Assembly: GCA_947652115.1 (NCBI GenBank)
Contig: OX393572.1
Coordinates: 9,436,611 to 9,500,610, forward strand
Source: Blastomussa wellsi
Lineage: Eukaryota; Cnidaria; Anthozoa; Scleractinia; Plerogyridae
Length of the DNA stretch: 64,000 bases
Reading direction: 5' to 3'
Shown here one piece after another: positions 1 through 56,212 of the stretch; positions within the stretch are counted from its first letter, which is position 1, and each line of letters opens with the position of its first letter. The notes under the pieces were generated by a model. The model ran no database searches. It saw only the letters and a list, made by a program, of their open reading frames with translations, and was not told the DNA's origin. The position numbers and the translations under genes were made by a program.

Positions 1-55
1 GGTTCGGCAAGAGTTTCGAAAAAAACTGGCGGCGTCCAGCACAAATTTGTACTAA
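1..55 (+). pseudogene. 3' end of a family-C (coiled-coil/hydrophobic) gene
   Basis: The first 55 bases read in one frame (from base 2) as a basic tail, KKLAASSTNLY then stop. This closely matches the C-terminal tail KKLTASTTNLN-stop of the two minus-strand C genes ending at 51289 and 52338. The bases after the stop (CTTTGAGAC) are also conserved. It is the end of another copy of the same element, cut by the window edge. The function of the family is unknown. Confidence 0.7.
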
Positions 56-117
56 ACTTTGAGACAAAAAAAAACAAAAATCTTTGTCTGTTTTAAAAAG
101 TAGATAACGCGTAACGT

Positions 118-1944: not shown

Positions 1945-2437
1945 TTGGGTCGCCGAGGCACGTTTCCGTTTCGTAAACGGTCGATGCCATTTTTTCGACA
2001 CTTAGAATTTTTTTTGGGCTATCATCGAATTTTTTTACCCACAAATTGTTAGTCAATGACAAGAATCGAACCCTGAACCTCTGACAAGCCAACATCCCTA
2101 TTTCACCAGTACACTACCACTACACTACCAGGCCAATCCGCCAAATCCCCACAAAATTTCGTTATAAAACAAGACTTTCTTAGTATATATATTTTACTTA
2201 TAGTATTGCCCCACCCAACAAATAAAGCTAACCGCAAGCACACCAGTGTGAAATTGAACAATTAAGCATTTGGTAAGTGTGTATTAGTCTATCACCAGTT
2301 TCGACCTAGTCCAGGCCTAAACTAGAGCGGATATAGCATCGTCCATTCCGAAAAGCTTGGTTACCAATTATGGCATCGACCGTTAAAAAATGGCACCGAC
2401 CGTTTACGAAACGGAAATTAGCGTCGCCGAGGAAGTG
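1945..2437. repeat. Inverted repeat pair around a tRNA-like segment
   Basis: The segment 1945-1998 is repeated in inverse orientation at 2375-2437. Both arms contain TTTCCGTTTCGTAAACGGTC followed by a T-run, and both can be read as FRFVNGRCHF. The arms flank about 380 bp that contain the tRNA-like sequence at 2053-2134. The right arm overlaps the 3' part of the open frame 2306-2848, so the end of that frame may be repeat-derived. Confidence 0.6.
2053..2134 (-). repeat. tRNA-derived SINE head or tRNA pseudogene
   Basis: Read on the minus strand the segment has a type 2 RNA polymerase III promoter layout. A D-arm/A-box-like GGTAGTGTAGTGGTAGTGT is followed about 45 bases later by a B-box-like GGTTCGATTCT. 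The acceptor and anticodon stems do not pair convincingly, so a working tRNA is unlikely. It lies inside the inverted-repeat pair 1945-2437. Confidence 0.5.
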
Positions 2438-2848
2438 TGTGTCTCCATTTTTCCAGCACGAGAAGCACAATCCATTCCGTTTACAGACGCTGCATTTTTT
2501 ACAAACCGTAGCCTTGAAAATTTGTTCACGTCTGCTACAGAAAGGAGCGCCTCGTAGTTCCTTGTGAATTTTATCCCAGCCAAGAGATAACCTTTGCTTA
2601 ATCTTTAAGGTAAGATACTCCTTGTATATCTTTTCCCTTAACTTGAAAATAATAACCTCAACTTGAAAATAATTCTGGCACGCAAATTCGCATATATCCA
2701 GTGCAGACATTTCGTCTACAACATACTCCTTGCATAATATTTCAATTGACGCCGCTAGTTCTTGTTCTAATATTCCAATTAACGCCGCTTGCTTTGGTTC
2801 TAAATTCTGCATCGTTGCTGGTCCTATTTCCTTTGCAGCCATCGACAA
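2306..2848 (-). CDS. Hypothetical Cys-rich protein of the MSQLW-type element family
   Basis: An open frame of 180 codons. The N-terminal 90 residues are helical (LEPKQAALIGILEQELAASI). The middle carries SLGWDKIHKELRGAPFC, which resembles GWDEVHDELLQAPFC at the end of the small A proteins at 50812 and 51838. It is followed by a Cys cluster (CKKCSVCKRNGLCFSC) that could bind zinc. The last 40 residues overlap an inverted repeat. Together with the neighbouring frame at 2903-3085 it forms a diverged copy of the module seen at 50.8-54.9 kb. The function is unknown. The motif similarity is visible, but a real full-length product is inference. Confidence 0.45.
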   Translation of the reverse strand: MSMAAKEIGPATMQNLEPKQAALIGILEQELAASIEILCKEYVVDEMSALDICEFACQNYFQVEVIIFKLREKIYKEYLTLKIKQRLSLGWDKIHKELRGAPFCSRREQIFKATVCKKCSVCKRNGLCFSCWKNGDTHFLGDANFRFVNGRCHFLTVDAIIGNQAFRNGRCYIRSSLGLD

Positions 2849-2902: not shown

Positions 2903-3085
2903 TCAGGTATTCAAATTGAGGGCCATCAGCTCGTGCAAAACAAGTTCATATTTTTTCTTTACCTTTTTCTTTTTGCGTATATTGGCCGCTGTCTTAGCGG
3001 GAGCCCGCCGCAATAAACGCGTAGTCGGTAGTCGCACAAAACTCCCCTGCCACAGCTGCGACATGGTGCGGGCTTTTTCGCTCAA
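2903..3085 (-). CDS. Small basic MSQLW-family protein (A homologue)
   Basis: About 53 residues starting at an internal Met. It reads MSQLWQGSFVRLPTTRLLRR, then a lysine-rich stretch and a terminal LVLHELMALN. The same layout (MSQLWYGSF, P-T-x-R-x-L-R-R-A, Lys-rich middle, a W/Y-x-x-x-x-H-x-E-L motif) is found in the duplicated A genes at 50812-50979 and 51838-52006. Conservation of the N-terminal block between distant copies on opposite strands argues that it is a real coding family. The high Lys/Arg content suggests nucleic-acid binding (inference). The product is unnamed. Confidence 0.55.
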   Translation of the reverse strand: MSEKARTMSQLWQGSFVRLPTTRLLRRAPAKTAANIRKKKKVKKKYELVLHELMALNLNT

Positions 3086-3264
3086 TTTTTGAGTTGAAAA
3101 TATAAATATTATAGAAAAAATATTATAGAAAACGTTGCTTAGAGTACTATATAGTTACAAATTATTACATTCGCTTAATAAAATTTAGCATAGGGTTCTG
3201 TATTAAGTTAATATTGCGTTTATAGGGTGACGCAGTGCTGGTTGCTGGTTATCAAGACAGCTAT

Positions 3265-4175
3265 TCAATTTCCGCTATTTTCGATTTTCCATTGAACATT
3301 TAGTTTTTGTTTGAATTGATTACTTAGTGGGAATTTTTCCATAATTTTACAGTCATAGATATACTTTTTCATTAGTGTTATGAAAATGCCAAATTTCCAC
3401 CTCAGAAGATGTTGTGATCCTATGGATAGCGTGAAATCATTAAAAAGGATCTGCTGCTTAGTCATATTAAATTGCGATTTCTGTACGTTGTTGAACCATG
3501 CCATCATTTCATGGTAAAAGTCCTCGACAACAGAGCAAGCCAGGAAAGTGTGTTCAAGGGAATCTGGACCTTTGCAAAAGAAACATTCATCATCTGGTTT
3601 GATTTTGTATCTTTTAAGTTCCTTTTTGGTTACTAGTATCTTATGGAATAGTTTGAAAGAAAATTGTCTTAACTTATTGTCTGCCGACATCTTTGATATA
3701 TCCTTAAATAAGTTATTCCATTTGTTGGCGAAGGAGGGGTAATGTTTGGACCATGATTGAATCGATGTTGGTTCTGTTTCCCATTTCGCTTGGAAGAGTG
3801 AGTAATAATCCTTGCACCGCATTTGGGACAAAAGGATGGTTTTCCCTTCGGCCAGCTGGTATACATCGGTTTCTTCTATGATTGATTCTGCAGGTTTTGG
3901 AAAAGTCATAGCTTTTAATTTAAGACTTTTGGGAATTGCAAAATTCCCAAATTGACTTCAATGTTATATTTAATCTTGAATTCTTCATAAGAAAGATATT
4001 TGCCGGTATTGTTAAGAAGATCTTGTACAAAGTATACCCCACGCTCGCTCCAGGTTTTCCAGTACAAAGATTTCCCTTCGATAGTGATACCTTGGTTGTT
4101 CCATATAATTAAGTCACCTTTGAAGTATTCATCCTTAGCCATTAAATGTGATGACTGGAAGTTAAGACTACCCAC
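3265..4175 (-). mobile_element. LINE C-terminal fragment with zf-RVT-type zinc knuckle
   Basis: Two minus-strand frames (4175-3915, then 3909-3265) are separated by a frameshift. They encode the region downstream of the reverse transcriptase of an L1/Tx1-like LINE. The first contains YFKGDLIIWNNQGITIEGKS and a WSERGVYFVQDLL segment. The second contains FKLFHKILVTKKELKRYKI followed by CFFCKGPDSLEHTFLAC, a C-x2-C-x7-H-x4-C knuckle as in zf-RVT domains. The reverse transcriptase itself is absent, so the copy is 5'-truncated at about 4175, where a C/T-rich telomere-like stretch begins. A related 3' fragment lies at 13383-13785 on the other strand. Confidence 0.85.
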
Positions 4176-49262: not shown

Positions 49263-49800
49263 CTTTGTCCCTCTAAGCGGTACTATGTAATAAGGTAGTA
49301 CTGCTCAGAGGGTCAAACTTCATATATAAGTATATGACCTCCATTAAGCCTTACTTTGGATTTTATTGAACAATCACAGGCTTTTCTGTTTAGGTTTCTA
49401 CTAGGTCAGAGATTATCAGAACATTTTTGGGCATAAAATATAATTATTGTGTCTGGTCTGTTGACTTGTCCCTCTAAGCGGTACTATGTAATAAGGTAGT
49501 ACCGCTCAGAGGGTCAAACTTCATATATAAGTATATGACCTCCATTAAGTCTTACTTTGGATTTTATTGAACAATCACAGGCTTTTCTGTTTAGGTTTCT
49601 ACTAGATCAGAGAATATCAGAACATTTTGGGGCATAAAATATATTTTTATCTTATCTGTTCTGTTGACTTGTCCCATAAGCATATTGGATTTTATTACAT
49701 AATTATAAGCTTTGCTGTCAAGGTTTGTGCTAGCTCAGGACATAGTAAAAATCCTATAATTCTATAAATGGTCAAAACAGGCCAATGTTCTGTAACTTTC
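49263..49800. repeat. Tandem 201-bp repeat, each unit headed by a 44-nt hairpin
   Basis: Units 49265-49465 and 49466-49666 are about 96% identical. A third, shorter and strongly diverged unit follows (TTGGATTTTATTACATAATT, about 49685-49760). Each full unit begins CCCTCTAAGCGGTACTATGT and AATAAGGTAGTACCGCTCAG AGGG, a nearly perfect stem of about 19 bp with a short loop. There is no coding capacity. Confidence 0.85.
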
Positions 49801-50366: not shown

Positions 50367-50531
50367 AGTAGTAATACTGGGGTTTAATGAATACCACCTC
50401 GTCACTCAACCGTTTATATATCTTCGCCCAAGTGAAAGAAGCTTGCTTTTTGCTCGCTTCTTTCACTTGGGCGAAGATATATAAACGGTTGAGTTCCGAG
50501 GTTGTATTCATTAAACCCCAGTATTACTACT
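50367..50531. mobile_element. Foldback MITE, 165 bp, about 74-bp arms
   Basis: The left arm AGTAGTAATACTGGGGTTTA, continuing to CTTCGCCCAAGTGAAAGAAG, is almost perfectly complementary to the right arm around a short TTGCTTTTTGC loop. It lies about 280 bp before the first A gene. Confidence 0.9.
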
Positions 50532-50811
50532 TGTAGAAGAACAACCCTGTCAGGTTCGAACAATTTTGAGAGAGGAAAATCTGCGGCAACCAAATTCAAG
50601 CAGCACAGACAACAAAATATTTTTTTTCAAAGAAACTCGCTTTGCAGGTTCAAACAATTTGACAGAAGCGTCGGCTTCCAAAAATACGAGGAGCAAACAA
50701 CTGCGAGTGGTTGCTGCGAAATCGGAAAAAGAACTGCGGCAAAAAGTGCGACAGAAATTATTGCGCGCAGCACAACCGGCAAATAAAAAAAAGAATGTAA
50801 AAGCCGGCGCC

Positions 50812-50979
50812 ATGTCGCAGCTGTGGTATGGGAGTTTTGACCGACCACCGACTATGCGGGCATTGCGGAGGGCACACGCAGCGGTCAAAGAAAAAGCGGA
50901 GAGAAAAGAAATGGGTTGGGATGAGGTGCATGATGAACTGTTACAGGCTCCTTTTTGTGAAAAACTTTCAGAGTGCTGA
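50812..50979 (+). CDS. Protein A, copy 1 (small, basic, MSQLW family)
   Basis: 55 residues: MSQLWYGSFDRPPTMRALRR, a Lys/Glu-rich middle and GWDEVHDELLQAPFCEKLSE. The Met was chosen because the homologue at 2903-3085 starts at the same residue. An in-frame upstream extension from 50566 exists (SSTDNKIFFFKETRF), but it contains repeat-like sequence and is not conserved in copy 2. The function is unknown; the Arg-rich N-terminus suggests nucleic-acid binding (inference). It is followed by B after 36 bp. Confidence 0.55.
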   Translation: MSQLWYGSFDRPPTMRALRRAHAAVKEKAERKEMGWDEVHDELLQAPFCEKLSEC

Positions 50980-51015
50980 AATTTTGTCTTTTCAGCACTC
51001 AGGAATGTAAACAAC

Positions 51016-51252
51016 GTGACTGTTGCCAAGGAAAGACATAATATTTTAAAGGTTGAAAGTATAAGAGAAAGCGTCATGTTTTTGTTGTTAATTCATATCA
51101 TCGCATATGCAATAGATGAACTTTCTTCGCCGCCCCTGCTGAATGATGTTAGAAGAATAACATACGAGTGTGTTCAGGCTATTGAAGAGGCACAGAAACG
51201 AGCTTCGATTAACCCAAAAGACAACTCTTGCAATATGGCCGGTCACGCGTGA
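51016..51252 (+). CDS. Protein B, copy 1 (78 residues, one hydrophobic helix)
   Basis: It reads MTVAKERHNILKVESIRESV, then MFLLLIHIIAYAIDELSSPP, giving one hydrophobic segment at residues 20-34. An amphipathic part with LNDVRRITYECVQAIEEAQK follows, and it ends CNMAGHA. The stop is at 51250-51252, overlapping the TCACGCGTGA palindrome (51243-51252). The protein sequence is the same in copy 2. The function is unknown. It converges on the C gene, with 36 bp between the stop codons. Confidence 0.5.
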   Translation: MTVAKERHNILKVESIRESVMFLLLIHIIAYAIDELSSPPLLNDVRRITYECVQAIEEAQKRASINPKDNSCNMAGHA

Positions 51253-51288
51253 CAGATGCGTCAATTTTTTATAATTTTGTCTCAAAGT

Positions 51289-51826
51289 TTAGTTCAAATT
51301 TGTGGTGGACGCCGTCAGTTTTTTTCGAAGCTCTTCACGAAGCTCTTGGCGAACCTGTTTTTTTATCATTTCAATATCCGGCGAATCGGACAGCTTCGCG
51401 AAGTTTTCCCGCAGCTTTTCTTTGAGTTCACGATAATTCTGCATTTCACGAGAGATCAGTTTGAATTCAGCGTCGGAAACATTGTTATTATCAAGAGCTT
51501 GAGAGACAGTTTTTTATCGAGTCATGCTTTGCCAGGGCCAGAGCTTGAATTTTTGTGTGCTTTTTAATTTTCCTTTCAAGCTTCTTGTTTACAACAGACA
51601 GGCCTGTGGAAGCAAACCCAAGGAGGGCGGCAATTCCAGCAACAGGCGCACCGACCAAACTTCCGAGGCCAGTAACAGAAGATGCGATGGCCCCGGAAGA
51701 AAGGAAGGCACTTGTAACGCCAAGAGATACCACGGAATAGTGAATCATTTTGTGAGCTTTCTTGTATTTTTTCAATACAAGCCTCCGGTGTTCAGCCTCA
51801 TCGGCAATTTCTTTTTCAATTTTATA
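51289..51826 (-). pseudogene. Protein C, copy 1 (coiled coil, Gly/Ala-rich hydrophobic region), truncated
   Basis: On the minus strand, KIEKEIADEAEHRRLVLKKY, then KKAHKMIHYSVVSLGVTSAF, a glycine/alanine-rich hydrophobic hairpin (GLGSLVGAPVAGIAALLGFA) and NKKLERKIKKHTKIQALALA. A one-base shift in an A-run follows at about 51515. The C-terminal coiled coil is SDAEFKLISREMQNYRELKE and SDSPDIEMIKKQVRQELREE, with a stop at 51289-51291. The start of the gene is lost at the tandem-duplication junction. I recognise the pattern from many coral gene models; the function is unknown. The hydrophobic hairpin suggests membrane insertion (inference). Confidence 0.65.
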
Positions 51827-51838
51827 AAAGCTGGCGCC

Positions 51839-52006
51839 ATGTCGCAGCTGTGGTATGGGAGTTTTGACCGACCACCGACTATGCGGGCATTGCGGAGGGC
51901 ACACGCAGCGGTCAAAGAAAAAGCGGAGAAAAAAGAAATGGGTTGGGATGAGGTGCATGATGAACTGTTACAGGCTCCTTTTTGTGAAAAACTTTCAGAG
52001 TGCTGA
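51839..52006 (+). CDS. Protein A, copy 2
   Basis: It is the same 55-residue protein as at 50812-50979 except for one Arg to Lys change in the basic middle. It starts at MSQLWYGSF and ends CEKLSEC. Upstream sequence derives from the C gene of copy 1, not from the native upstream region of copy 1, which supports the Met at 51839 as the true boundary of conserved coding. Confidence 0.55.
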   Translation: MSQLWYGSFDRPPTMRALRRAHAAVKEKAEKKEMGWDEVHDELLQAPFCEKLSEC

Positions 52007-52042
52007 AATTTTGTCTTTTCAGCACTCAGGAATGTAAACAAC

Positions 52043-52279
52043 GTGACTGTTGCCAAGGAAAGACATAATATTTTAAAGGTTGAAAGTATAAGAGAAAGCG
52101 TCATGTTTTTGTTGTTAATTCATATCATCGCATACGCAATAGATGAACTTTCTTCGCCGCCCCTGCTGAATGATGTTAGAAGAATAACATACGAGTGTGT
52201 TCAGGCTATTGAAGAGGCACAGAAACGAGCTTCGATTAACCCAAAAGACAACTCTTGCAATATGGCCGGTCACGCGTGA
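52043..52279 (+). CDS. Protein B, copy 2
   Basis: 78 residues, identical in sequence to copy 1 at 51016-51252. The only nucleotide difference noticed is silent (GCATAC versus GCATAT, near 52133). The stop again lies within the TCACGCGTGA palindrome (52270-52279). Confidence 0.5.
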   Translation: MTVAKERHNILKVESIRESVMFLLLIHIIAYAIDELSSPPLLNDVRRITYECVQAIEEAQKRASINPKDNSCNMAGHA

Positions 52280-52337
52280 CAGATGCGTCAATTTTTTATA
52301 ACAGAGAGAGAGATTTTTGTGTTTTTTGTCTCAAAGT

Positions 52338-52929
52338 TTAGTTCAAATTTGTGGTGGACGCCGTCAGTTTTTTTCGAAGCTCTTCACGAAGCTCTTGGCG
52401 AACCTGTTTTTTTATCATTTCAATATCCGGCGAATCGGACAGCTTCGCGAAGTTTTCCCGCAGCTTCTCTTTGAGTTCACGATATTTCTGCATTTCACGA
52501 GAGATCAGTTTGAATTCAGCGTCGGAAACATTGTTATTATCAAGAGCTTGAGAGACAGTTTTTTATCGAGTCATGCTTTGCCAGGGCCAGAGCTTGAATT
52601 TTCGTGTGCTTTTTAATTTTCCTTTCAAGCTTCTTGTTTACAACAGACAGGCCTGTGGAAGCAAACCCAAGGAGGGCGGCAATTCCAGCAACAGGCGCAC
52701 CGACCAAAATTCCGAGGCCAGTAACAGAAGATGTGACGGCCCCGGAAGAAAGGAAGGCACTTGTAACGCCAAGAGACACCACGGAATAGTGAATCATTTT
52801 GTGGGCTTTCTTGTATTTTTTCAATACAAGCCTCCGGTGTTCAGCCTCATCGGCAATTTCTTTTTCAATTTTGCTGATCTCAGTAAGCCGGAAATTTTCT
52901 GGGGTTTTTTCAAGGGGAAGCTCTGGATT
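52338..52929 (-). pseudogene. Protein C, copy 2 (longest copy)
   Basis: The frame continues further upstream than in copy 1 and includes LPLEKTPENFRLTEISKIEK before the EADEAEHRR-type coiled coil. It then has the Gly/Ala-rich hydrophobic hairpin (residues about 50-95 of the visible part), NKKLERKIKKHTKIQ, and a C-terminal coiled coil ending in KKLTASTTNLN at 52338-52340. It has the same one-base shift at the AAAAAAC run near 52560 as copy 1, so the shift predates the duplication. No clear ATG was found: the frame remains open to 53538, but that part is antisense to gene D and probably not coding. Confidence 0.6.
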
Positions 52930-53155
52930 AGGAGAGCGCACTTTTTTTTTTGGTTTTCGGCAACCAAATTTCCGCACAAACGCGCATGCATGCAAGAACA
53001 TCGGATTTTTTCTCCAACACCCAAATTTTCGCACAAGCAGCTTTGTATGGTCTCCGAGATTGGCAAGCAAATACCACTTTTCCAGCAAATACGCAAGCAA
53101 AGACGCATGCAAAGGTCGCCCAATTAAAGAAAGGGTTGCCGGAAGTATACAAAAA

Positions 53156-54564
53156 ATGTCTTCGCAACAGCTAGTGGATTTCGACAACGGAACAGTGGTT
53201 CCACAACCTTCCAATATTGTAGCTTTGTTTTTCTCCGGGGCCAAAAACGAAGCCACAACACCCCTCGCAACACCCGCTGCAAACGACGAAAAACAGGAAG
53301 TTGCAGCGACGAACGTCGACGACGCGACCAAACAAACCTTCGAAAGCATGGCCAAAGACGAAGCCACAACACCCCTCACAACACCCGCTGCAAACGACGA
53401 AAAACAGGAAGTTGCAGCGACAAACGTCGACGACGCGACAAGACAAACCTTCGAAAGCATGGGTCTGCGGTGCGAGAAATCTGTTGCGGCCCAAAAGCAA
53501 TCTGCGTACGAAAGCAATCTTCTGGCCGACATCGCCAAGGTCGACTATCTGGCAGGGAACCTCGGCCACATGAATCTGCGGCCATTGGCTGGTCTTCCGC
53601 CTTTCGTCAACGACATCTTCGTATTTGGCTATCTTTCCAGAGAGGAGTGCGTCTACAAGAGAGGAAAAATCTCCTGCACTGAGGGCCCACAAGGTGTGGC
53701 AAAAACTGTCGTGGCAAACATCGCAATAGCATTGGAAAATGTCCTGGAGAAACGCTACACAACAAACATCGTCCACACAGTGGGGCAAGGGAAAGCGGAA
53801 AACAGCGCAATCCGCGCCACCATCGAGAGAATCGAGAAAAACACCTGGCACAGGGCAAAAAGAAGCTGGTTTGATCTACACCCCGAGGAAGAGATCGCCG
53901 GCTATTTCTTGGCGAAATGGAAGAGTTGCACCAGGCGCTGCCGGTTTTCGCAAATCATCTGGTCGGGGGCTTCGGCTACGATATCTACTCCATCGACTAC
54001 ACACAAGACTTTTCGGGCACTTTGGATCGCAAAGCTCTTGTGGACTACCTTGGATTCGAAACGGCAGGGAGTTTGTCCGCCGCAATGGGAGAAAATAGCC
54101 CCTGGCTCCTGGACAACACCGCTAGCGTCGGGGAGCACTGCTGCACCTGGCTCGAGACCACAGAACAACAAGAAACCACAGCCACCCGAAACAAGATCTA
54201 CAACAAAGTCGTTTCGAATTTTGAGGCAGGAGAAATCCGCGAGCCTGTTGGTGGGCACCTGGCAGAATACGCCGACTGCCCCAACCAGCGGCTCCGCCAA
54301 ACATCCTTCCACCCAGACGTGCAAGCCCGAGGTTGTACTCGAATCAAAACCACTTTGTACGGCCTCCCACTCGACGAACTATCGAACAAGAAAGCTTCCG
54401 CCTGCATTGAGAAAGTCTTGGCGCAGGTTTCTGTCGACGCCGAACAACAAGCTCTCTTTGTGGTCCAACCACCCAGCAAGCAGTGGCAAAACCTCGCCGC
54501 CACCTCGCGAAACCTCGCGGCCGGTGCGTACCGAAAAGCTTTATCTTGCAAAGAAGTTTTTTAA
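53156..54564 (+). pseudogene. Protein D, about 470 residues, one frameshift; possible replication initiator
   Basis: It starts MSSQQLVDFDNGTVVPQPSN, then two 37-residue tandem repeats and LRPLAGLPPFVNDIFVFGYL, an EGPQGVAKTVVANIAIALEN block and RIEKNTWHRAKRSWFDLHPE. The frame shifts at about 53917. The C-terminal half has VGGFGYDIYSIDYTQDFSG, a CTWLETTEQQ block, TRNKIYNKVVSNFEAGEIRE, VQARGCTRIKTTLYGLP and ALFVVQPPSKQW, ending at 54562-54564. The order D-x-x-x-D strand, K-[IV]-Y-[ND]-K, then R-x-[EK]-x-x-L is reminiscent of Rep_trans/gene II-type rolling-circle initiators. This is a weak inference; no histidine pair of an HUH motif was found. It is divergent from C by about 230 bp. Confidence 0.5.
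53240..53461 (+). repeat. In-frame 111-bp tandem duplication in gene D
   Basis: Units 53240-53350 and 53351-53461 encode 37 residues each. They differ at a few positions, for example K-N-E versus K-D-E, PLAT versus PLTT and ATKQ versus ATRQ. The frame is kept, and the segments are low-complexity (Ala/Thr/Asp), suggesting a disordered linker. Confidence 0.9.
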
Positions 54565-54875
54565 TAAATGTTTACAACGCATCATAAAAACTTCGCTAAA
54601 ACAATGTTTCTACCTACAGAGACCGAATGACGGTTTAAAATCACCGATTTGCGCCAAATAGAACCAGAGATATCATTTTTTCTGCCATGACAATCAATTA
54701 GAAAACAAGTCTCACCGAGGTGTGCCGAAAGACTGCAACTTTACCTCACATAAAAGTTAATAAATGTTCATGACACATCATAAAAACCTCCATAGAACAT
54801 TGTTTCTACCTATAAGGATCGTTTCACCGTTTAAATCACCGATTTACGCCGAATAGAACCAGAGATATCATTATT
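54564..54875. repeat. Two diverged direct repeats after gene D
   Basis: Segments 54564-54675 and 54758-54870 share TAATAAATGTT, CATCATAAAAAC, ACAATGTTTCTACCTA, AAATCACCGATTT and GAATAGAACCAGAGATATCA, about 80% identical with a 195-bp period. They could form the 3' end of the A-B-C-D element. AATAAA in each unit may serve as a polyadenylation signal. Confidence 0.7.
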
Positions 54876-56074
54876 TTCGCGACTTGCCACGACTAGCCGG
54901 CATGTGTCAAAATTATAATGGAATGAAGTTCCAGTGAATTCAATGGACTCGCTGGCCTGGGAAAAAAAGAATTGACATAAGCAACATCGCAAAAAAACTT
55001 AAAAAATGTCAAATGTCAAATAAATCGAAAAACATTCTATTTGCCGTGACTCAAAAGATAACAAACAATTAGCAGGAGACTCGACGGCGCGTGCCTTAGA
55101 CAAAAGCTGTCTCCCGCAAACTTGTTTGACAAGACAACCTTTTTACAAACAAATCATTTCATCTCGATTTTTGTCAAATAGACATGAAGTGACTCTTCCG
55201 AGGTCTTGAATTATCGATAAGCTGACGTTTCTTAAATAATTGTTAAAAGAGCGTGTGAATCATGGCTGGGTAGTTCTGTTAAAGTAAACAAAATCCCCCG
55301 TCTATTTGTCTCGAACTACCGAATGAATAATGAATGAATAATGCAAAAATCAAAATAAAAGAAGTTGAAATTATCGAGTTCTTTTCCGGGAATTTGCCGG
55401 GCCAGAATGCACGTGTTCGACGTGCTGTGTTTCCAGACTTTTCCTTCCGCCGAAATTGGAATTGACCAAAGAAATTTACTTTCATCTGATGAAAGTAATT
55501 CTTATCTGCATAAAGAAAAACCAAAATTCAAGCCGAACGACAAATAAACAGCTAGTTGAAAGCAGCCAAACAAGTCCGATAAGTCCGTCACAGCGATTAG
55601 GCGACATCTCAACAACTCGTCAAGTCGACTGTTTGATGAAAGTAAAAGTTTTCCGAAAAGCGAAGGTGCTACTAACACAAAATGTTTTAGCTCTAACCTA
55701 TGTAATTTACGAAGAAGTCAGTTGAGTTGATTTTATGCCACTGAATGAATGTTGAACATGCACAGTGTAGTCAATTAAATCAGGCGCGTCGCGGCACCGA
55801 TACCGATATCGAGTGGCGACCAAGTTTCATTTCAATTTAAGCAGTTTAAGAACAGGCAAAACAAATGTCGCTCAATACATGTATGTAAACATTGCCCACT
55901 GAGCAGTAACAATAAAACTCCAGTCGCACATCCCCCATGCTTACCTCACCGAAAAAATAAACCAACAATACATGCTCGCTCAACAATTTTTCCAATGCAC
56001 GCGAACAACTGTTTGCACAGAAGCAGTTTATTTTGTTTCTCCAAAAAAACGTCAAGTGGTACTTGCAGTGCACT
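54876..56074. other. Intronic, nothing recognised
   Basis: Frames at 55279-55725 lack family resemblance. Confidence 0.45.
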
Positions 56075-56212
56075 CGCGAGAAACGAGAAATTTCTCGAGA
56101 CAGTTCTCGTTTCCTGTGATACGAGTCTCGTTTCTCGCGATACGAGTCGCGTTTCTCGCGATACGAGTCACGTTTCTCGCGATACGAGTCGCGTTTCTCG
56201 CGAGACGGTGGT
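56075..56212. repeat. 21-bp tandem array with TTTCTCGCGA motifs
   Basis: About five units of CGTTTCTCGCGATACGAGTC occur in tandem, bordered by ACTCGCGAGAAACGAGA on the left and TTTCTCGCGAGACGG on the right. The array therefore carries the palindrome TCTCGCGAGA at or near both ends in opposite polarity. The minus frame gives a REKRDSY repeat, probably not a protein. Confidence 0.85.

Follow-up and report, generated by a model that had tools for sequence, protein, structure and literature searches.

The locus and the question

A locus in the stony coral Blastomussa wellsi raises the question of whether four adjoining genes, here called A, B, C and D, make up a single mobile element and of which kind. 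The genes lie in a 64,000-nucleotide stretch (assembly GCA_947652115.1, contig OX393572.1, positions 9,436,611 to 9,500,610 of the forward strand), referred to in its entirety as the window. A sequence-only reading had placed an unclassified element of mobile or viral origin at 50800..54875. The locus is instead a broken composite of two element families with common ends, one of which carries a family B DNA polymerase (PolB) and is known, and the other of which carries D and appears to be new. That the sequences belong to a repeated family of mobile or viral origin was confirmed, as 154 matches to D and at least 150 to C were found in the genome.

The window element is a composite

Comparison with other units in the genome revealed an abrupt switch in similarity at position 52928. 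To the left of it, the two C regions (51283-51823 and 52287-52928) share 87% DNA identity with that of the PolB unit L077, and positions 52930-54504 are 91–92% identical to the D unit L040. The left end (50367-50879), comprising a palindrome and A, was 79 and 85% identical to L077 and 85–92% identical to L040. By these alignments the window element is a composite in which C resembling that of PolB units is joined to D at 52928. Its features are as follows.

50367..50531, no strand: terminal imperfect palindrome, left element end, two 76-nt arms with 13 nt between
50696..50980, plus strand: A, copy 1, Cys-rich frame conserved among copies
51076..51249, plus strand: B, copy 1, 58 aa, with a relative in L043 (60% over 43 aa)
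51494..51823, minus strand: C, copy 1
51828..52007, plus strand: A, copy 2, C-terminal part, product of tandem duplication
52103..52276, plus strand: B, copy 2
52543..52872, minus strand: C, copy 2
52928..52930, no strand: junction from PolB-unit-like sequence (C) to D-unit-like sequence
53156..54504, plus strand: D, broken; residues 1-196 of the 878-aa homologue P0001 at 53156-53917 and residues 204-395 in another frame at 53917-54501

The left end was defined by the 165-nt palindrome, the arms of which are 96% complementary. Its predicted DNA fold has an energy of -83.8 kcal/mol compared to a mean of -12.4 kcal/mol in 200 shuffles (z -25) and is therefore far beyond chance. The window contains one palindrome core, 100 shuffles yielded none, and neither a second core nor a right element end was found within the 64 kb. 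The frame of D changes at 53917, similarity to other D copies ceases at 54504, and positions 54505-54875 have no similarity to the D units compared. The window copy is thus broken and truncated, and the extent given by the earlier reading has to be revised at both ends, since the palindrome at the true start lies outside it and similarity stops before its end.

Other parts of that reading held. There is a tandem duplication of A, B and C, in which 300-nt stretches repeat at spacings of 1027 and 1049 bp with identities of 99% and 97%, and C on the minus strand is followed by D on the plus strand. Both C copies end early in comparison to the 212-aa C of L077. In A, not only the basic frame of that reading (50812-50976) but also the overlapping Cys-rich frame at 50696-50980 is conserved among copies. 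The joining of C to D recurs at a few loci. L043 repeats the order B, piece of C, D, and C on the minus strand neighbors D on the plus strand at C2:8381457 and C16:17050820. The combination of C with D therefore exists elsewhere but is not the rule, and single elements do not usually hold A, B, C and D together.

Two families of units with common ends

The genome search covered 368 Mb in 124 contigs. All counts are lower bounds, as only the best candidates were scored and listed: the best 150 of 413 for D (215-aa query), the best 150 of 837 for C, which gave 150 matches, and the best 66 of 1708 for PolB, which gave 66 merged loci. The palindrome core was matched 104 times (48 forward and 56 reverse) at up to two mismatches, and the reversed control not once. 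Counts of units and pairs rest on 150 listed D, 150 listed C and 100 listed palindromes. Out of 32 palindrome pairs at most 35 kb apart, 25 faced inward, 1 outward and 6 were in tandem. Six of the 25 inward units held a listed D, eight a listed C and eleven neither. None held both, which led us to reject one coherent A-B-C-D element as the rule. In a cluster of another kind, four palindrome cores of the same orientation lie within about 8 kb (G000:C19:9194977-9203184); in L070 and L072, the mismatched site of the outer arm has changed and the inner arm is cut short.

A listed palindrome was located 0.9–2.7 kb upstream of PolB at 10 of the 66 loci, and a back-facing one 10.0–11.4 kb downstream at 7. 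C lies 0.3–1.0 kb after PolB on the other strand at three loci and elsewhere mostly 4–10 kb after it on the same strand, so that the place of C varies between sub-families.

A single PolB unit between two palindromes, of about 15 kb on contig C4, was read, in separate pieces. It encodes A, a 375-aa open reading frame (ORF), PolB, C (212 aa), a capsid-like ORF, an A32-type ATPase and an integrase. The polymerase matched PF03175 (E 7e-8, 32.2 bits, cut-off 25.8). The rve integrase matched PF00665 (E 1e-5) at 26.1 bits, below the gathering score of 32.6, and the packaging ATPase matched Pox_A32 (PF04665, E 1.2e-4) at 22.1 bits, just below the gathering score of 22.8. The capsid-like ORF (415 aa) has 1716 homologues and no Pfam match. 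Palindrome and A are present at both ends, and the unit is flanked by the target site duplication (TSD) ATAGG. A second A-like frame and, by manual reading, the end of an integrase-like frame were found at the right end. Judged by its gene content, the unit is an element of the Polinton/adintovirus type. As A and C sit together with polymerase, ATPase and integrase, they are genes of a known kind of element, and the earlier statement that the gene set does not match Polintons was mistaken for these two genes.

The likeness to Polinton/Maverick elements and adintoviruses extends to PolB, the A32-like ATPase, the rve integrase, the capsid-like ORF and inverted ends with a 5-bp TSD. A coral polinton, the Stylophora coral adintovirus (StCAV), has already been published (PMC11071308, available text). 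Adintoviruses are defined, in the accessible portion of PMC11071296, by an OTU-like domain with PolB and an integrase chromodomain; neither domain was matched in a Pfam scan of the PolB-unit pieces. Named sources of capsid and C homologues were the stony corals Oculina and Desmophyllum. For both the capsid homologue P0173 and the C homologue P0356, the longest contig has 15161 bases and comes from the same sources, possibly one virus-sized contig. Searches of viral contigs with C, the capsid ORF and the palindrome core returned nothing useful.

D units often carry D in inverted arms

All 26 pairs of listed D at most 12 kb apart are convergent, with no divergent or tandem pair. They hold 52 of the 150 listed matches, and the other 98 have no listed neighbor. 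Core-to-core lengths of the six D units bounded by palindromes are 7.6, 7.1, 5.9, 5.3, 2.4 and 13.6 kb, the last with a long interspersed nuclear element (LINE) inserted in its center. Among the listed matches, D is present at both ends in three of the six and at one end in the other three. A is found at both ends of L040 and L042 and in pieces in L041 and L075, and was not found in L039 or L044; in several units of both families it adjoins the palindrome. An ORF without a Pfam match lies in the center of some D units and is 202 aa long in L040.

The arms within a D unit are 93.0–98.5% alike in the six units. L042 belongs to a divergent sub-family, and its arms are 93.0% alike as opposed to 64–73% when compared to other units, from which it follows that arms are inherited together, at least there. 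In the close sub-family, identities within units (94.6–98.5%) overlap those between units (87.6–97.6%). The differences of 1.5–7% between arms, together with the L042 arms matching each other best, led us to reject an assembly artefact as the source of the inverted arms; against this stand runs of 200 N in the center of L039, L041 and L042. These runs (L039 4486-4685, L041 4267-4466 and L042 5074-5273) are most likely assembly gaps at inverted repeats. Substitutions among close D copies are spread over all three codon positions, the third being slightly to twofold higher, so that most of these copies look like decaying ones. In the divergent copies L042 and L075, third positions have changed about twice as much.

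A polymerase and integrase of their own were not found in the D units, as listed D lies within 12 kb of PolB at 2 of the 66 loci. The D units were on this account classed as companions of Polintons and not as Polintons. They differ from Polinton/Maverick elements and adintoviruses in having no PolB match and in carrying D in inverted arms, and both they and the PolB unit end in a long hairpin-forming palindrome. No palindromic Polinton ends of this type were found in the open literature searched.

Terminal palindromes and target duplications

Both families have the same type of terminal palindrome and TSDs of 5–6 bp. Six palindrome pairs were tried, and the five readable ones (three PolB- or C-bearing units and two D units) gave TSDs of 5, 6, 5, 5 and 5 bp, of which the 6-bp TSD (TAATAA) and one 5-bp TSD (GGGGG) are of low complexity; the sixth pair has a degenerate end. 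Short duplications of such length are typical of Polintons.

Co-variation of the palindrome arms was assessed with 22 of 30 fetched ends, eight truncated, degenerate or duplicate ends having been removed by eye. The arms co-vary: both sides had changed in 25 of 70 pairs. Cells changed on both sides numbered 144 as compared to a shuffled mean of 39.5, a test that is inflated by relatedness. Paired cells made up 98.3% versus 36.0–44.2% for slid partners, which retain relatedness. The pairing structure was derived from the very sequences tested, and further pair types did not rise above shuffles (206/500). Two short mismatched sites in the stem keep their orientation in almost every copy. These sites are complementary in L067, as though one arm were a copy of the other.

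Protein D

Neither Pfam, PHROGs nor NCBIfam gave a named family for D at a usable score, the best PHROG match being to a family of unknown function (E 0.0063). P0001 matched no Pfam family at E 1, the L044 copy matched only Aldedh (E 9.7) at E 10, and a sequence search of PDB returned nothing useful. PF02486, the Rep_trans/MOBT family, was not among the 25 listed of the 31 families matched by 49 D members; two inovirus records likewise gave no match to PF02486 at E 0.01.

Models of D suggest a two-lobed curved sheet. They match TBP and all three Rep_trans structures listed, with TBP chains outscoring Rep_trans chains. According to the available part of PMC4797284, the Rep_trans fold has the strand connectivity of TBP. 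In 60 homologues, five residues are invariant or nearly so where present: D40 (58/58), D182 (59/59), Y253 (60/60), K255 (59/60) and E302 (59/59). They map to strands 38-48, 177-188, 247-254 (followed by helix 255-261) and 298-306, as assigned by manual reading. Comparable acids, Tyr and Lys occur on strands of Rep_trans/MOBT proteins in the text available from PMC6499999. D may resemble these proteins in its modeled sheet and in having a Tyr, a Lys and three acids at putatively corresponding strands. It differs from them in having no sequence-level match to PF02486, a long C-terminal part and a different order of elements in the N-lobe, in that the T-x-Y-x-G motif was not seen, and in its occurrence in animal genomes.

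In alignment A3, which covers the N-terminal 507-aa part of D, the columns with at least 90% His (272, 283 and 290) include no two that are two apart. A Helitron-type origin was rejected on the lack of a conserved His-x-His pair, a parvovirus-like HUH nuclease with superfamily 3 helicase on the lack of both this pair and a helicase match, and a Crypton on the lack of a matched recombinase domain. HUH proteins were not among the fold-search matches listed for D, which is uninformative. OB-fold-type matches to RPA, Rim1 and LEF-3 were too weak for interpretation, and no reading was drawn from the single match below E 0.001 in a Foldseek search of viral models (A0A0X8XCH2, unnamed, E 5.8e-4, TM 0.20). 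Of 50 tallied D proteins of at least 840 aa, 18 have a longest contig of 2.6–4.0 kb, about one arm length, and P0072 is an additional case. Contigs of this size would fit collapsed inverted arms elsewhere as well as small free molecules.

Other features of the window

Relatives of A and C had also been reported near the window start, at 1-55, 2306-2848 and 2903-3085. DNA matches were found for two pieces:

1..104, plus strand: C-region-related piece truncated at the start of the window; its DNA matches L077 on the reverse strand
2926..3096, minus strand: A-related piece of another broken copy

The ORF at 2306-2842 (minus strand) encodes a different protein that has only a short stretch in common with the A region. 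Relatives of its Cys-rich tail were found in L026, L042, L051, L057, L064, L069 and L071, several of which are palindrome-end loci. A zf-RVT ORF at 3265-3909 (minus strand, E 9.8e-8) is a LINE remnant separate from the element, and a LINE was rejected as the identity of the latter. Direct repeats unrelated to the element occur upstream (units of about 201 bp, 49265-49738) and downstream (units of 195–196 bp, 54561-54876), as does an unrelated 21-bp tandem array (56093-56207).

Proposed mechanism and alternatives

The two families have common ends, TSDs of the same length class and co-varying palindromes, and the D units add inverted D arms and conserved residues in D. In the explanation that we favor, at a probability of about 0.45, the window holds a composite, defunct left portion of a D-type element, D units are small non-autonomous satellites of the Polinton-type elements of this genome, and D nicks the terminal hairpin to prime replication. 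Both integration in trans and nicking by D are inferred. The Polinton integrase would insert D units in trans, and D would be a eukaryotic initiator with the action of a Rep_trans rolling-circle protein. Extrusion of the terminal palindrome would give a hairpin that the invariant tyrosine of D may nick at or near the conserved mismatched sites. D would then remain on the 5' end, and the freed 3' end would prime copying of the element by a Polinton or host polymerase. The co-variation of the arms between copies would be explained if one hairpin arm is copied from the other. Several results weigh against this explanation: the PolB unit carries the same hairpins with no D seen in its pieces, the mismatched stem sites do not flip, and the structural scores of D are middling. 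A wider claim is put forward tentatively, namely that cnidarian hairpin-ended Polinton satellites may form a class that replicates by strand nicking at palindromic ends and not by protein priming, through a eukaryotic Rep_trans-like initiator that forms a separate protein family; for the copying of eukaryotic DNA transposons this would be a third route besides HUH nicking and protein priming.

It is rather unlikely that D is instead a DNA binder with a TBP fold that does not nick, for example an end-binding or transcription factor, and that D units are ordinary non-autonomous Polintons protein-primed by Polinton proteins. Common ends and TSDs would suffice for such proteins to act in trans, and both the higher scores of TBP chains and the missing PF02486 match are in line with a binder. 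The near-invariant Asp, Asp, Tyr, Lys and Glu are however placed on strands as in Rep_trans active sites, and a pure DNA binder should have no need of such residues. An element family made up of A, B, C and D in its own right, as first proposed, with incomplete PolB and D units as its deletion derivatives, would account for the gene order in L043 and for the C-D neighbors at C2:8381457 and C16:17050820. It is improbable given that none of the 25 palindrome-bounded units holds both listed C and listed D, that listed D is near PolB at 2 of 66 loci and that similarity switches abruptly at 52928. There is but a slim chance that D units are endogenized remnants of a small, free DNA virus with hairpin ends and a parvovirus-like lifestyle that captured Polinton ends. 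Hairpin ends and the 18 of 50 large D proteins on short contigs would fit such a virus, yet no capsid gene was recognized in the D units read, searches of IMG/VR contigs, GTDB genomes, phages and plasmids did not find D, and short contigs would also be expected where assemblers collapse inverted arms.

Relation to other replicons and significance

Replication by D-type satellites, as favored here, would bear a partial likeness to several known systems. D units share hairpin-capable ends with parvoviruses and, like bidnaviruses, which mix Polinton and parvovirus parts (PMC4061559, available text), they mix Polinton parts with another replicon. They differ from both in that D has neither a His-x-His pair nor a helicase match and in their 5–6-bp TSDs.

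Helitrons and Replitrons are HUH transposons with a His-x-His replication initiator. D units are like them in a transposon-borne initiator, which is putative for D, and unlike them in having no conserved His-x-His and in ends that consist of long palindromes, inverted arms and a TSD.

Neither a counterpart of the D family nor a Rep_trans-like initiator in a eukaryotic mobile element was found in the open literature searched. To our knowledge there is no earlier initiator of this type in such an element, and D would be the first if nicking is true. In that case D would illustrate how Polintons come together with nick-primed replicons, and this would have a bearing on the origin of bidnaviruses from Polinton and parvovirus parts, as described in the portion of PMC4061559 available. 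The co-varying palindromic ends offer a testable view of the maintenance of ends of this type, and many unnamed coral gene models that resemble C and D become recognizable as genes of mobile elements.

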